Below, piece after piece: positions 15,371 through 21,058 of a stretch of 35,264 nt of DNA (positions are counted from its first letter, which is position 1; every line of letters begins with the position of its first letter). The notes beneath the pieces were generated by a model. The model saw nothing but the letters and a program-made list of their open reading frames with translations, was not told the origin of the DNA and ran no database searches. A program made the position numbers and the translations under genes. This stretch comes from a virus. The stretch is from positions 1-35,264 of the IMG/VR virus record IMGVR_UViG_3300030102_000829, one strand, 5' to 3'.

Positions 15371-15856
15371 ATGAAAGAAATTCTTGATGTGTGTTGTGGT
15401 GGCAAAATGTTTTGGTTTGATAAAGAAAATATAGATACTTTATATCTAGATAAAAGAAGAGAAGGTGCTGGTATTGTTGAGAAGTGGCAACCTACTTTTA
15501 AAGTAAATCCTGATTTAATAATGGATTTTAGAAATTTAGATTTACCTGATGAGTCATTTAGTTTAGTTGTGTTTGACCCACCACATATTTTTAACAAAGG
15601 TATATCTACAGAAAGAAGTGTAATGGCAAAAAAATATGGAACTTTACATTGGGATACCTGGAAAGATGATTTGTCAAAAGGATTTAATGAATGTTGGAGA
15701 GTGTTAAGACCAAGAGGAACTTTAATATTTAAATGGCACGACCATCAAGTTAAGATAAGAGAAGTTGTAAATTGTTTTAGTCAACAACCTTTGTTTGGTC
15801 AAAGGTCAGGTAAAGGTGGTAAGTCACATTGGTTAGTTTTTTATAAAGGAGAATGA
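15371..15856 (+). CDS. Class I SAM-dependent methyltransferase, probably DNA-modifying
   Basis: 161 residues. Motif I is D-V-C-C-G-G-K-M-F-W (6-15), where SAM would bind. Motif IV is F-D-P-P-H (68-72), close to the D/N-P-P-Y/W of amino-methyltransferases, so N6-adenine or N4-cytosine methylation is plausible. G-K-G-G-K-S-H-W-L-V-F-Y closes the fold. No target-recognition domain is visible, as usual for short phage methyltransferases. It sits with PP-loop and Mom-like genes, which points to genome modification against host restriction. Target sequence unknown. Confidence 0.78.
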   Translation: MKEILDVCCGGKMFWFDKENIDTLYLDKRREGAGIVEKWQPTFKVNPDLIMDFRNLDLPDESFSLVVFDPPHIFNKGISTERSVMAKKYGTLHWDTWKDDLSKGFNECWRVLRPRGTLIFKWHDHQVKIREVVNCFSQQPLFGQRSGKGGKSHWLVFYKGE

Positions 15857-15857
15857 A

Positions 15858-15953
15858 ATGGATGATGAAACAATGTTATACTATGGGATGATAATGATTA
15901 TGGGTGCGTTAATATTTGTTGGTCTAATGGAGATGTTAGTTGAGCATTTTTAA
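15858..15953 (+). CDS. 31-residue single-span membrane peptide
   Basis: MDDETMLYYGMIMIMGALIF continuing to a short M-E-M-L-V-E-H-F tail: one transmembrane helix with acidic ends. SD AAAGGAG lies within the end of the methyltransferase gene. Its end overlaps the PP-loop gene start by 14 nt. It may be a leader or a true small membrane protein. Confidence 0.5.
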   Translation: MDDETMLYYGMIMIMGALIFVGLMEMLVEHF

Positions 15954-16809
15954 AACAATAGAAACTAAATATAATTATCTTTCATTAGGTGCAGGCGTAC
16001 AATCATCTACGTTAGCCTTTATGTGTATGAAAGGAGAGATAACACCTAAACCTGATTGTGCTGTATTTGCTGATACACAAGCAGAACCACAAGAAGTGTA
16101 TGACTATTTAGAATATTTAAGAGATAACGTAGACTTCCCTGTCTATACTGTTACTTCAGGTTCATTAGAAAAAGAAGTTATTAAAGAAAAAATAGCTACA
16201 GAAAAAGCCATTCAATATAATCCAGGTGAAAAGTATGGTGTATTACAAATACCAGCATTCGGAGTTATGCCAGATGGAAGTGTAACAGCAGCAATAGGTA
16301 GAAAATGTACAGCAGATTACAAGATAAAACCTGTTCATAAATTTATAAAAGAAAAATTTAATATAAACTCCCGGAAAAAAGATGCAGTTAATTTAGCTAC
16401 AGCATACATTGGAATATCATATGATGAGATTCAAAGAATGAAACCATCAAGAGATAAATGGTGTGTTAATAGACATCCATTAATTGAAAAACAAATAAGA
16501 AGATCTGACTGTATTAAATGGATGAAAGAAAATGGTTATGAAGAACCACCAAGAAGTGCTTGTTATTTTTGTCCATTTCACGATAACAAAGAATGGAGAA
16601 ACTTGCGTAACAATAATCCAATAGAGTTTGAAAAGGCCATACAGTTTGATAAAGATATTAGAAAAAGAATGAAACAATTTCCTAAAATTAAAATGGAAGT
16701 TTATCTTCATAAAGATTGTAAACCATTAGACCAAATAGATTTTGATAATGATGAAGATAAAGGACAAATGAATTGGTTTAATGAATGCGAAGGAATGTGT
16801 GGAATATAA
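15940..16809 (+). CDS. PP-loop ATPase, PAPS-reductase-like family
   Basis: 289 residues from a TTG with GGAG 8 nt upstream; no later start keeps the nucleotide motif. S-L-G-A-G-V-Q-S-S (15-23) is the PP-loop variant of adenine nucleotide alpha-hydrolases, followed by C-A-V-F-A-D-T-Q-A-E-P, the usual partner motif. Cys pairs near the end (A-C-Y-F-C-P-F-H; C-E-G-M-C) resemble metal or Fe-S ligands in phage PAPS-reductase-like proteins. It adenylates a substrate before thiolation or amidation. Lying among a methyltransferase and a Mom-like gene, DNA base or backbone modification is a reasonable role, but sulphur metabolism or tRNA modification cannot be excluded. Confidence 0.75.
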   Translation: MSIFKTIETKYNYLSLGAGVQSSTLAFMCMKGEITPKPDCAVFADTQAEPQEVYDYLEYLRDNVDFPVYTVTSGSLEKEVIKEKIATEKAIQYNPGEKYGVLQIPAFGVMPDGSVTAAIGRKCTADYKIKPVHKFIKEKFNINSRKKDAVNLATAYIGISYDEIQRMKPSRDKWCVNRHPLIEKQIRRSDCIKWMKENGYEEPPRSACYFCPFHDNKEWRNLRNNNPIEFEKAIQFDKDIRKRMKQFPKIKMEVYLHKDCKPLDQIDFDNDEDKGQMNWFNECEGMCGI

Positions 16810-16827
16810 TTTTATTTAAGGATAAAT

Positions 16828-17250
16828 GTGAAGGATAAAGAATTTAGAATAGGTATTAGATTTGTAAGTTTATTTCCTGCACTTCAACCTATTATTATTC
16901 CTGAAGATCCTTATTGTTCTTATGACTTTGAAATTAAACATTACATATTAGAAGTAAAAGCAAGAGATAAATATTACGACGATTGGATTATTGAAAAAAT
17001 AAAAGCAGATAAAAATTTAAAGATAGCTAAAGAAACCGGAAAAGAATTTTTATATTTATCAGAATATAAAGGTATAGGATATGTACATAATGTTACTAAA
17101 CTTACTTCTAATAATTATGATTTTAAATGGGAAATAAAAAACTTGCCTGAAACAACAGAGTTTAGTAAAACAAATTGGATTCCAAAACATATTGGATATA
17201 TGCACATTAAAGATTCTAAACAAATAAAAATAGGAGAAGTAAATGATTAA
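16828..17250 (+). CDS. Possible PD-(D/E)XK-fold nuclease
   Basis: 140 residues from a GTG with SD AAGGATAAAT. Residues about 29-55 read Y-D-F-E-I-K-H-Y-I-L-E-V-K-A-R-D: a D then E-V-K, the E-x-K core of restriction-like nucleases, followed by Y-Y-D-D-W-I-I-E-K-I-K-A-D-K and E-F-L-Y-L, the expected next helix and strand. The rest is unfamiliar. It is in the modification block, where a nuclease acting on unmodified DNA would make sense. Assignment by motif only. Confidence 0.5.
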   Translation: MKDKEFRIGIRFVSLFPALQPIIIPEDPYCSYDFEIKHYILEVKARDKYYDDWIIEKIKADKNLKIAKETGKEFLYLSEYKGIGYVHNVTKLTSNNYDFKWEIKNLPETTEFSKTNWIPKHIGYMHIKDSKQIKIGEVND

Positions 17251-17437
17251 AATAATTATAGAAGACGAGCAAGAATTAGTAGGCATTAAAGATAAACATA
17301 GCTGGACATTAGAAGATACAGTTAGTGTATTTGAAACTGCACTAAATAAATTTTTTAATTCAGAAGTTAAAGTATCTGTTCAACCTAAACAAAAAGCTAC
17401 TATTGAAGTTCCTATGCAAGAAGCAGAAGGTATGTAA
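17243..17437 (+). CDS. 64-residue protein, unknown
   Basis: MIKIIIEDEQELVGIKDKHS then a helix with T-L-E-D-T-V-S-V-F-E-T-A-L-N-K-F-F and an acidic end. SD AGGAGAAG lies inside the preceding gene; it overlaps the preceding gene by 8 nt and shares TAATG with the Mom-like gene. No family recognised; tight coupling suggests work with a neighbour. Confidence 0.6.
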   Translation: MIKIIIEDEQELVGIKDKHSWTLEDTVSVFETALNKFFNSEVKVSVQPKQKATIEVPMQEAEGM

Positions 17438-17973
17438 TGGAAGATGTAATGCCTTTGTTTAGGAGTTCTCTTGGAGATCATAAACCTAAAAGCACAAAGG
17501 ATTTAATTTTACTTTCTTGTAGTGTTCACGAAGCGTGTAAATTAAATAGTAAATGGCATAGTCGATTACCAATTATTCATTGGTCTAATGTAGTTCGTAA
17601 TAAATATTATAAGTGTTATAGTTTTTCTTATAACTATGTTAACTATGCTACTGCTATTTGGAGCAGTCCAGTAGCTAGAAAATTAGATGATAAAACATTT
17701 TTAGAATTAAGAAGAATGGCTATATGTAATGAAGCACCAAAGAATACAGCTACTCGTATGATTTCTTTAATGATAAAAGATATTAAAAAAAAATTACCAA
17801 AGATAAAAACTTTAATTAGTTACCAGGATACGGAAGTACATTTAGGTACAATCTATAAAGCATCTAATTGGAAAGATATAAAAATATCTAAAGCAGCATC
17901 TTGGCAAAAAAGTAGAAAAAGAAATAAAGAACAAACTATGGCACAAAAAATAAGATGGGAATATTACATTTAA
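17437..17973 (+). CDS. Mom-like DNA adenine modification protein (GNAT-related)
   Basis: 178 residues. The order of features matches phage Mom/GNAT-like proteins: N-V-V-R-N-K-Y-Y (51-58), E-L-R-R-M-A-I-C (90-97), N-T-A-T-R-M-I-S (103-110), and I-S-Y-Q-D then H-L-G-T-I-Y-K-A-S-N-W (127-145), where the family reads S-Y-A-D..G-H-x-G-T-I-Y-x-A. Mu Mom converts adenine to a methylcarbamoylated form that blocks restriction. Gln replaces the Ala in S-Y-A-D. It ends the rightward operon, immediately before the riboswitch promoter. Family call is by pattern and quite strong; chemistry is inferred. Confidence 0.72.
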   Translation: MEDVMPLFRSSLGDHKPKSTKDLILLSCSVHEACKLNSKWHSRLPIIHWSNVVRNKYYKCYSFSYNYVNYATAIWSSPVARKLDDKTFLELRRMAICNEAPKNTATRMISLMIKDIKKKLPKIKTLISYQDTEVHLGTIYKASNWKDIKISKAASWQKSRKRNKEQTMAQKIRWEYYI

Positions 17974-17976
17974 ATC

Positions 17977-18005
17977 TTGACACATTTTTGTAACTTTAGT
18001 ATAGA
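17977..18005 (+). promoter_or_regulatory. Consensus sigma-70 promoter for the riboswitch unit
   Basis: TTGACA (17977-17982), 17-bp spacer, TATAGA (18000-18005). The expected start is about 7 nt after the -10, a few bases before the riboswitch aptamer. It begins four bases after the Mom-like stop. Confidence 0.8.
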
Positions 18006-18017
18006 CAGTATATAACT

Positions 18018-18064
18018 CGTTCAACCTGTATGGTCGGAAGTAGCAGAAAGTCTGCGAAGGAACG
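18018..18064 (+). promoter_or_regulatory. Glutamine riboswitch (glnA / Downstream-peptide RNA family)
   Basis: P1 is CGTTC (18018-18022) with GAACG (18060-18064); P2 is ACC-TGTAT-GGT (18024-18034); P3 is GCAGA-AAG-TCTGC (18043-18055). The conserved joining segments CGGAAGTAG after P2 and CGAAGG after P3 match what I know of the L-glutamine aptamer shared by the glnA and Downstream-peptide RNAs. These occur in cyanobacteria, cyanophages and marine metagenomes. A GGGAGG SD and an 18-codon ORF follow at once, as the Downstream-peptide name implies. Ligand binding is from family knowledge; the direction of control here is unknown. Confidence 0.88.
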
Positions 18065-18085
18065 CTAACATTGGGAGGTATTACA

Positions 18086-18142
18086 ATGGAAGTTATCCTT
18101 ACTTATAGAGGTGTAGCGTACAAAAAAATCCTAAAGAGGTAG
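18086..18142 (+). CDS. Riboswitch-controlled 18-residue peptide (DUF4278-like)
   Basis: MEVILTYRGVAYKKILKR. SD GGGAGG lies 7 nt before ATG, directly after the riboswitch. The L-T-Y-R-G-V-x-Y core resembles the DUF4278 motif common in small cyanobacterial and cyanophage proteins and in peptides below Downstream-peptide RNAs. It is basic and short and followed by a strong terminator, so the transcript encodes nothing else. In cyanobacteria glutamine riboswitches control glutamine-synthetase inhibitors; a host nitrogen-metabolism target is therefore an attractive guess, not shown here. Confidence 0.75.
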   Translation: MEVILTYRGVAYKKILKR

Positions 18143-18289
18143 TATGCGTATATGTCCTACACTTGTAGGACATATTTTTTCTCCGATCTTTTCACTTGCC
18201 TGGCGTATCATCTCATCCCTATCAAATCCATTAACTTCTACTACTGCTTCTTTTCCTGATTCCTTGTGAACAATACGATACATAGACAT
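18131..18289 (-). CDS. 52-residue protein at the convergence point
   Basis: MSMYRIVHKESGKEAVVEVN onward, ending I-R-I-L-P-L; SD AGGGAG is 2-3 nt before the first ATG with a second ATG two codons later at better spacing. The C-terminal codons are made by the terminator hairpin of the opposite strand and the last 12 nt overlap the 18-residue peptide gene tail to tail. It is the last gene of the leftward unit. The N-terminal half is protein-like (hydrophobic/charged alternation, then an amphipathic helix). Unknown function. Confidence 0.5.
   Translation of the reverse strand: MSMYRIVHKESGKEAVVEVNGFDRDEMIRQASEKIGEKICPTSVGHIRILPL
18150..18180 (+). terminator. Strong intrinsic terminator of the riboswitch unit
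   Basis: ATATGTCCTAC (18150-18160), loop ACTT, GTAGGACATAT (18165-18175): an 11-bp perfect stem followed by a T run. It stops the plus-strand transcript at the point where it would meet leftward transcription. Confidence 0.92.
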
Positions 18290-18312
18290 AACTCCCTTTT
18301 AATTTTGATGTG

Positions 18313-20200: not shown

Positions 20201-20352
20201 TACTTACCCAACCTTTGCTTTATTCCTATAACTAAATATACTATAGTTAGTATAGATATAACTAACGATAACAAAGGATTAACCCATTGTAGATTCCAAC
20301 TACTAACAAATCCTATTGTTCCTACTAAACCTTTTTCAATACAATCATTCAC
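20200..20352 (-). CDS. 50-residue single-span membrane protein
   Basis: Starts at GTG 20352, which overlaps the PEP-CTERM gene stop as GTGA, with AAGGA upstream. One strong transmembrane helix near the end (P-L-L-S-L-V-I-S-I-L-T-I-V-Y-L-V-I-G-I) with a basic tail (K-Q-R-L-G-K). Could be an accessory lysis protein (pinholin or spanin-like) or a membrane anchor; no family recognised. Confidence 0.6.
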   Translation of the reverse strand: MNDCIEKGLVGTIGFVSSWNLQWVNPLLSLVISILTIVYLVIGIKQRLGK

Positions 20353-20912
20353 GACAGTTTCCTTTTAGCTATTAATAAACTTGCACCACCTAATATAATT
20401 AAACTTATAGCTTGTGGCTCTGGAATAATACTTAATGGTTGATTACTTGTTACTGTAAAATCTACTGTGCCTACAACGTATGGGTCATAACTAGATACAA
20501 CTGCTACTAACTGATTATGTATCTGTACATCATCTAAATAAAAGTATAATCCTTCTGGACTATCTTCGTTACCATCATCATCTTCATCAAACAATGTAAG
20601 CTGTACAGACCCACCACTAAATCCATTTAATGTATGTTGTTCTATCTCATACAAATAAAGATAAGGGTCGTTATAATCATAGTTAGGATTACTACTACCT
20701 AAATCAGCATCATAATTATCAAACGCTAAAGTAGCATATCCATCTGTTTGTATATGAAATATATCATAATAGAATGGCTCTTGGTCTACATAGGTAACAT
20801 TACTTTCTGTAAGTGTAGCTTCTACATCATATACATACAAATCAGCTCGTGTAATACTTGCTAACATTATTAGTAACACAAATCCTATCCATAAAATTAT
20901 ATTTTTAATCAT
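20349..20912 (-). CDS. Secreted PEP-CTERM-like anchored protein
   Basis: 187 residues from ATG 20912 (ATGA overlap; an upstream ATG at 20927 adds five residues). N-terminal signal peptide: K-N then I-I-L-W-I-G-F-V-L-L-I-M-L-A-S, cleavage probably after T-R-A. The mature part is a beta-rich, Asp-rich domain (D-E-D-D-D-G-N-E-D; many Tyr) that may bind Ca2+. The end is I-P-E-P-Q-A-I-S-L-I-I-L-G-G then a hydrophobic helix and K-R-K-L-S: the three parts of a PEP-CTERM exosortase signal. A phage copy implies export and anchoring at the infected cell surface, but only if the host has an exosortase. Confidence 0.7.
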   Translation of the reverse strand: MIKNIILWIGFVLLIMLASITRADLYVYDVEATLTESNVTYVDQEPFYYDIFHIQTDGYATLAFDNYDADLGSSNPNYDYNDPYLYLYEIEQHTLNGFSGGSVQLTLFDEDDDGNEDSPEGLYFYLDDVQIHNQLVAVVSSYDPYVVGTVDFTVTSNQPLSIIPEPQAISLIILGGASLLIAKRKLS

Positions 20913-21058
20913 TTCTTTTTCATCCAACTAATTAATTTAAATATCTTCCAATGTCTTGGCATAAACATACTCAATGTACATATGAATCCACCTAATCCAA
21001 TACAGATACCTGTAAGGTGTGGTTGTATATGTTCTAAAATTATATCGAAGTGTATCAT
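20909..21058 (-). CDS. 49-residue single-span membrane protein
   Basis: MIHFDIILEHIQPHLTGICI, with one helix L-T-G-I-C-I-G-L-G-G-F-I-C-T-L-S-M-F-M and a basic tail (W-K-I-F-K-L-I-S-W-M-K-K-K). ATGA-coupled at both ends, between a virion-type gene and the PEP-CTERM gene. Resembles a short holin-like or anchoring protein, but no family was recognised. Confidence 0.6.
   Translation of the reverse strand: MIHFDIILEHIQPHLTGICIGLGGFICTLSMFMPRHWKIFKLISWMKKK

Follow-up and report, generated by a model that had tools for sequence, protein, structure and literature searches.

A candidate phage-borne type-1 glutamine riboswitch predicted to turn on an 18-residue DUF4278-type peptide

The viral DNA analysed here (the window, meaning the whole stretch of 35,264 nucleotides) comes from a small marine phage and encodes a peptide of only 18 residues, which very probably lies under the control of a glutamine-family RNA sensor. 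The same sensor precedes tiny proteins, most of them without annotation, in well over a hundred further viral sequences. It is likely that the unit is a self-contained phage type-1 riboswitch that turns ON a DUF4278-type peptide as glutamine rises; we infer that the RNA binds glutamine, that the response is in the ON direction, and that the peptide serves to tune nitrogen metabolism. Cyanobacteria, marine metagenomes, and a few phages are already known to contain glutamine riboswitches, and the parts of the present unit, type-1 riboswitch and DUF4278, are likewise known. Among the targets that type-1 riboswitches activate in cyanobacteria are DUF4278 proteins such as IF17 (PMC6316151).

Cassette layout and phage background

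A covariance-model search of the whole window places the type-1 glutamine riboswitch aptamer (RF01739) on the plus strand at 18016-18068, as a full-length match (1-53) of 47.1 bits with an E-value, for the whole window, of 2e-7. The gathering score is 35 bits, and this is the sole Rfam match above threshold in the 35 kb. The Downstream-peptide model (RF01704, now "Glutamine-II") had no match at E <= 5 in a covariance search of 17900-18300; the aptamer is therefore assigned to type 1, not type 2. The first-pass annotation had read all core elements of a glutamine aptamer from the letters, with both the glnA and the Downstream-peptide families in mind; helices P1, P2, and P3 and the conserved core are indeed all present, and the models favor the former family. 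The unit and its neighbors are laid out as follows.

17437..17973, plus strand: Mom-like DNA modification protein (PF25680, E 5e-18; phrog_1384), upstream neighbor outside the unit
17977..18005, plus strand: candidate sigma-70-type promoter, TTGACA-N17-TATAGA, read from the sequence
18016..18068, plus strand: type-1 glutamine aptamer (RF01739, covariance model)
18018-18022 / 18060-18064: aptamer P1, CGTTC/GAACG
18024-18026 / 18032-18034: aptamer P2, ACC/GGT
18035-18043: aptamer core, CGGAAGTAG
18043-18047 / 18051-18055: aptamer P3, 5 bp
18057..18100, plus strand: predicted anti-aptamer hairpin (OFF state), from folding energy and opening cost
18073..18078, plus strand: Shine-Dalgarno sequence (SD) GGGAGG, 7 nt 5' of the AUG
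18086..18142, plus strand: 18-aa ORF MEVILTYRGVAYKKILKR, ATG at 18086 to TAG ending at 18142, a minimal DUF4278-like (YRG) peptide
18150..18175, plus strand: intrinsic terminator, an 11-bp hairpin followed by T6
18131..18289, minus strand: convergent 52-aa ORF, MSMYRIVHKESGKEA...PTSVGHIRILPL, kept in all eight relatives examined

The aptamer helices are supported by covariation across viral homologs: P2 has at least 3 bp in 105 of 105 viral aptamers, compared with 47% when the arms are mispaired, and P3 is kept in 67%, compared with 21%.

The promoter had been called a consensus one, which is slightly generous. Its -35 element (TTGACA, 17977-17982) is perfect and the spacer is 17 nt, but the -10 element (TATAGA, 18000-18005) agrees at 4 of 6 positions and lacks the final T, which is why a consensus scan missed it. 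A transcript start is expected near 18012. TTGAC lies exactly at -41 from P1 in nine units of the 105-unit viral set; the upstream sequences of the clade are otherwise divergent, yet TTGAC is kept at about -41. The terminator stem carries a compensatory change in relatives (CCTAC/GTAGG to CCCAC/GTGGG). The SD, the 18-codon ORF, and the 11-bp terminator are all in place, and the proposal of a self-contained cassette of about 200 bases is supported: the unit recurs in relatives and its reading frame is under purifying selection, which argues against chance. The proposed insulation from the surrounding operon holds on the 3' side, where the terminator lies, but not on the 5' side, where none was found between the Mom-like gene (end 17973) and the promoter, so that read-through from the operon is expected. 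A role as uORF or attenuator for a downstream gene was excluded, as the terminator and a convergent gene come next.

The Mom-like gene is missing at this place in some relatives, one of which (L417) has the unit directly after a 64-aa ORF; no relatives of the Mom-like neighbor were found. Beside the unit, on the plus strand at 15371-17973, it is grouped with a DNA methyltransferase and a PAPS-reductase-like protein that also matches SspD in PADLOC. It is possible that this cluster is a DNA-modification island.

The phage had been described as T7-like, a label that its predicted proteins do not sustain. Its capsid and tail proteins are nearest those of HTVC010P-type pelagiphages (34-37% identity; MCP up to 37%, tail tubular B (TTPB) about 34%), TerL is 28-32% identical, and the replication genes are DnaB-like and O-like. 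By these comparisons the phage resembles HTVC010P-type podoviruses and is probably not T7-like in the usual sense. No RNA polymerase match was found in the window or the scanned ORFs; the control genomes gave no match either. The close kin, 61 loci by terminase, are uncultured. RF01739 is present in 11 of 50 relative records, and in eight of the nine that reach at least 30 kb, with scores of 36-52 bits. None of 10 isolated HTVC010P-type pelagiphages carries the riboswitch, the unit has no close DNA match among isolate phages, and psbA is absent from all relatives tested.

As to the host, the YRG motif points to cyanobacteria and the capsid and tail point to SAR11-type phages, while a PEP-CTERM-like protein and a neighbor sharing 54% identity with a P8625 (Verrucomicrobia phage) protein hint at Verrucomicrobia. 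RF01739 was found in none of 195 Verrucomicrobia genomes. The PEP-CTERM-like protein (20349-20927, minus strand, 192 aa) has, as read by eye, a signal-peptide-like start and the tail IIPEPQAISLIILGGASLLIAKRKLS, which is unusual in a phage; it has no Pfam match and was not seen in the relatives fetched.

The peptide and its family

A YRG peptide follows 10 of the 12 aptamers of the clade. In eight units the ORF reads MEVIL(T/Y)YRGVAYKKILKR, and in two more it begins MEVTLNYRGSTYVKV. The MEVIL form exists in seven distinct nucleotide versions, among which codons 7, 8, 9, 11, and 13 vary only synonymously and the T/Y change at codon 6 is the sole amino-acid difference. Variation is confined to codons 6-13, codons 1-5 and 14-19 being invariant at the nucleotide level. 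Invariance of codons 1-5 even at synonymous sites is expected if they also form RNA structure, as in the hairpin predicted below. For the last codons, a reason is offered by the overlap with the conserved convergent ORF, which crosses the terminator and ends, antisense, within the 3' end of the 18-aa ORF; the convergent ORF itself has no Pfam match.

An aptamer pattern search recovered at least 119 viral contigs, and a strict SD, ATG, and ORF (at least 14 aa, within 60 nt) is present in 119 of 124 distinct viral downstream regions, compared with 2.9 (maximum 7) in shuffled sequence; pooled dN/dS over 37 independent viral pairs is 0.20. A pattern scan of genome contigs was set aside as too loose, its matches being mostly due to chance. 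Two outcomes that the first-pass annotation had named as fatal to its proposal, the absence of a covariance match and a peptide frame not shared by relatives, did not arise, and the comparison confirms the 18-codon ORF as an authentic coding frame under purifying selection. At about position 1570 of two more distant relatives (L423 and L424), the same aptamer lies 5' of a different ORF of 53 aa (M[WY]YV-K--LSGG-HEVYQA...), which suggests that the cargo of the cassette is exchangeable.

Against DUF4278 (PF14105), the 18-mer scores 13.5 bits (E 0.095, model positions 3-11 of 57), below the curated cut-off of 25.3 bits; we therefore call it DUF4278-like and not a member. Three longer phage YRG proteins exceed the cut-off (26.5-30.3 bits), and a profile-profile comparison links the viral YRG family to cyanobacterial DUF4278 with 96% probability (E 6e-9). 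The LTYRGVxY core of the 18-mer is also N-terminal in the cyanobacterial riboswitch-controlled proteins: nearly all ORFs read after cyanobacterial RF01739 aptamers encode YRG proteins with an M-K-L-T-Y-R-G-V-x-Y start, and in these the YRG repeat (DUF4278) occurs one to three times, in many cases with an IF domain after it. Matches to DUF4278 above the cut-off came from 16 of the 59 cyanobacteria scanned, from one of 195 Verrucomicrobia, and from none of 240 Alphaproteobacteria; this scarcity beyond the cyanobacteria weighs against the proposed reading. Judged by its sequence, the peptide amounts to a minimal DUF4278 repeat and lacks the IF domain that inhibits glutamine synthetase. Like IF17 (GifB) and the DUF4278 proteins of cyanobacteria, it has the N-terminal LTYRGVxY core and the same riboswitch; unlike IF17, it is a single repeat with a basic tail.

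Two known leaders invite comparison. The Synechocystis gifB leader (RF01739, glnA RNA) shares the aptamer sequence and structure, the position just 5' of a DUF4278-type ORF, and probable activation of translation; the present unit differs in being phage-borne, in having its own promoter and terminator and an ORF of 18 codons, and in placing the first five of these in a predicted OFF hairpin. Downstream-peptide (RF01704) RNAs precede ORFs of 17-100 aa in cyanobacteria (PMC2864571), which in picocyanobacteria are of DUF4278 type (PMC6316151). Here, too, a glutamine aptamer lies 5' of a tiny ORF, but the window RNA scores as RF01739.

A predicted two-state leader and its rival readings

In the predicted OFF state, AAGGA (18057-18061) pairs with UCCUU (18096-18100), GCU (18064-18066) with AGU (18091-18093), and CAUUG (18069-18073) with CAAUG (18084-18088), so that the hairpin takes up the aptamer 3' end, the linker, and codons 1-5, with the AUG paired and P1 excluded. 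RNA 18056-18101 folds into this hairpin at -13.2 kcal/mol (z -3.80), a value equalled by none of 200 shuffles. Opening the SD-to-AUG region costs 10.11 kcal/mol in the unconstrained fold, as against 6.06 kcal/mol with P1/P2 held, and a drop of about 4 kcal/mol is also found in the seven MEVIL-type relatives listed. Over 105 viral units the mean ddG is 1.59 kcal/mol, compared with 0.05 with shuffled tails; when the units are counted by peptide cluster, so that kin do not enter twice, 14 of the 20 lie above their control (p 0.006). The MEVTL subgroup shows a weak two-state signal (ddG 0.6 in L427), and L423 shows none. The elements that differ between states are the start codon and early codons. 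Sequestration of the SD was considered as the switch and excluded, for the SD lies in a loop and is as open in one state as in the other.

The ensemble folded without constraints does not populate P1, and a fold with P1/P2 formed is about 7.9 kcal/mol less favorable than the unconstrained one. This is more than a weakly bound ligand could pay at equilibrium, so the switch would be kinetic, acting during transcription. As P1 formation lowers the opening cost of the start site, glutamine should turn translation ON. In the mechanism that we propose, host RNA polymerase would start near 18012; without glutamine, the aptamer 3' segment (AAGGA...GCU) and linker would be paired to codons 1-5, with the AUG hidden in the hairpin; with glutamine, P1 (CGUUC/GAACG) would form and remove that segment, leaving only a weak 5-bp hairpin, so that ribosomes could start; and the terminator would then end the transcript.

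The same energies, namely the high cost of P1/P2 and the unpopulated P1, would also suit an aptamer that has been retained beside a peptide expressed constitutively, or one that glutamine switches OFF. We consider this unlikely: a dead aptamer would not have kept its core so strictly conserved or its P2 and P3 covarying, the structural predictions favor ON, and the homologous cyanobacterial switches activate (PMC6316151). Far less probable still is a non-coding transcript, either a sponge or an antisense RNA to the 18131-18289 gene, with the 18-aa ORF incidental. The transcript is indeed short and terminator-ended, and a conserved antisense ORF overlaps it with its 3' end, but the synonymous-only codon variation, the excess of viral units with an SD, ATG, and ORF, and the low dN/dS all speak for a translated product.

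What that product does is a separate matter. It could be a miniature glutamine-synthetase inactivating factor, given a riboswitch class and N-terminal motif as in IF17 and the basic character of the peptide. This is an improbable reading, however, because the 18-mer has no C-terminal IF domain (RQQxML region), viral tiny proteins score no higher against an IF profile than shuffled sequences do, profile-profile comparison finds nothing, and the DUF4278 part of IF17 is dispensable for inhibition (PMC6316151). An IF7-like origin of other viral micro-proteins, suggested by RRRQKILM in Melnitz beside RNRQQVML in IF17, was likewise rejected, with scores equal to shuffled sequence and a negative profile comparison. 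There is a larger, though still modest, chance that the peptide acts elsewhere—on DNA or RNA, at the membrane, or on a general host-takeover target—with glutamine as only a timing cue, for example one that marks when protein synthesis ends. Elsewhere among viruses, many unrelated basic micro-proteins are under the control of such aptamers, and a timing role was proposed by the Melnitz authors (PMC9004378). Yet the YRG class specifically matches DUF4278, which bacteria place under the same riboswitch, and charge is weak evidence: 108 of 108 micro-proteins are net positive, but so are 84% of off-frame readings. The phage may sense the nitrogen status of its host, as the first-pass annotation proposed, and by way of the DUF4278 link a nitrogen role for the peptide is plausible; as to how a glutamine-induced YRG peptide might act, our guess is that it occupies a DUF4278 binding site as a short decoy or partner.

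Viral aptamers and micro-proteins beyond this phage

The ORFs that follow viral aptamers have a median length of 38 aa. About a quarter encode YRG peptides, and the rest belong to other families of basic micro-proteins. Among 39 non-relative riboswitch contigs tested, psbA is present in five, four of which encode YRG proteins; and the 22 isolate or single-virus records that match a tandem YRG protein all come from cyanophages or from marine viruses sequenced as single cells. Tandem glutamine aptamers before one micro-ORF, as in bacteria, were observed in eight contigs (L009, L013, L027, L044, L057, L069, L078, and L116).

In the cyanomyoviruses P-SSM2, P-SSM7, P-TIM68, S-SRM01, and DSL-LC02, as in the present phage, an RF01739-like aptamer lies near small DUF4278 proteins; in the first four it lies upstream, two of the four scoring below cut-off. 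These viruses differ in that their aptamers are weaker (29-36 bits) and are often separated from the protein gene by another ORF, the proteins are longer (40-48 aa), and the background is T4-like.

Melnitz, a phage of OM43, offers another parallel in layout: it too is a marine phage, and its RF01739 aptamer stands immediately 5' of a tiny ORF. The Melnitz riboswitch has been read in print as control of the tmRNA gene ssrA (PMC9004378). Its aptamer (RF01739, 52.8 bits) is directly followed on the 3' side by a 32-aa ORF, MTLYQQWCYLKAQKEYRRRQKILMYFRIRLKG, with its own SD (L443:1270-1368; MZ577097.1 from about 46469). The record annotates an opposite-strand ORF there and leaves the 32-aa ORF without annotation on its strand. 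Unlike the YRG peptide, the Melnitz ORF belongs to another family (WC[FY]K), which also follows aptamers in other contigs, and in the two-state comparison the opening cost of its start site falls from 14.1 to 9.8 kcal/mol. The recurrence of the family and this energy difference make the micro-protein a likelier target than ssrA, and the layout of the 119 viral regions described above also suggests a different target in Melnitz; the riboswitch there probably acts on the 32-aa micro-protein.

In the literature, the type-1 glutamine riboswitch is restricted to cyanobacteria apart from environmental sequences. We also observed it in Alphaproteobacteria with small genomes (1.4-1.6 Mb; L488-L495; G595, G442, G576). 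One of these genomes has eight copies, arranged as tandem pairs; the genes that they precede are glnA, two ammonium-transporter-like genes, and a circularly permuted ATP-grasp gene.

So far, phage glutamine riboswitches have been either attributed to known genes or described with no target. In the present unit a target is visible, an 18-codon peptide conserved across a clade and below the reach of most gene callers. Among the papers searched, none states that viral aptamers gate micro-proteins, and as far as we have found, this rule is new, as are the phage group, the minimal peptide, and an OFF structure drawn from coding sequence. As a tentative generalization, with the odds slightly against it as matters stand, diverse aquatic phages (T4-like cyanophages, the OM43 myophage, and HTVC010P-type podoviruses) may share a class of cassette in which a glutamine riboswitch gates a hidden micro-protein of about 16-70 residues, its first codons often doubling as the OFF structure, and thereby retunes the host when glutamine rises in infection. 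If the switch proposed here is real, phages read a host metabolite directly by RNA to time the production of micro-proteins, and the peptides themselves would become testable probes of host nitrogen control.
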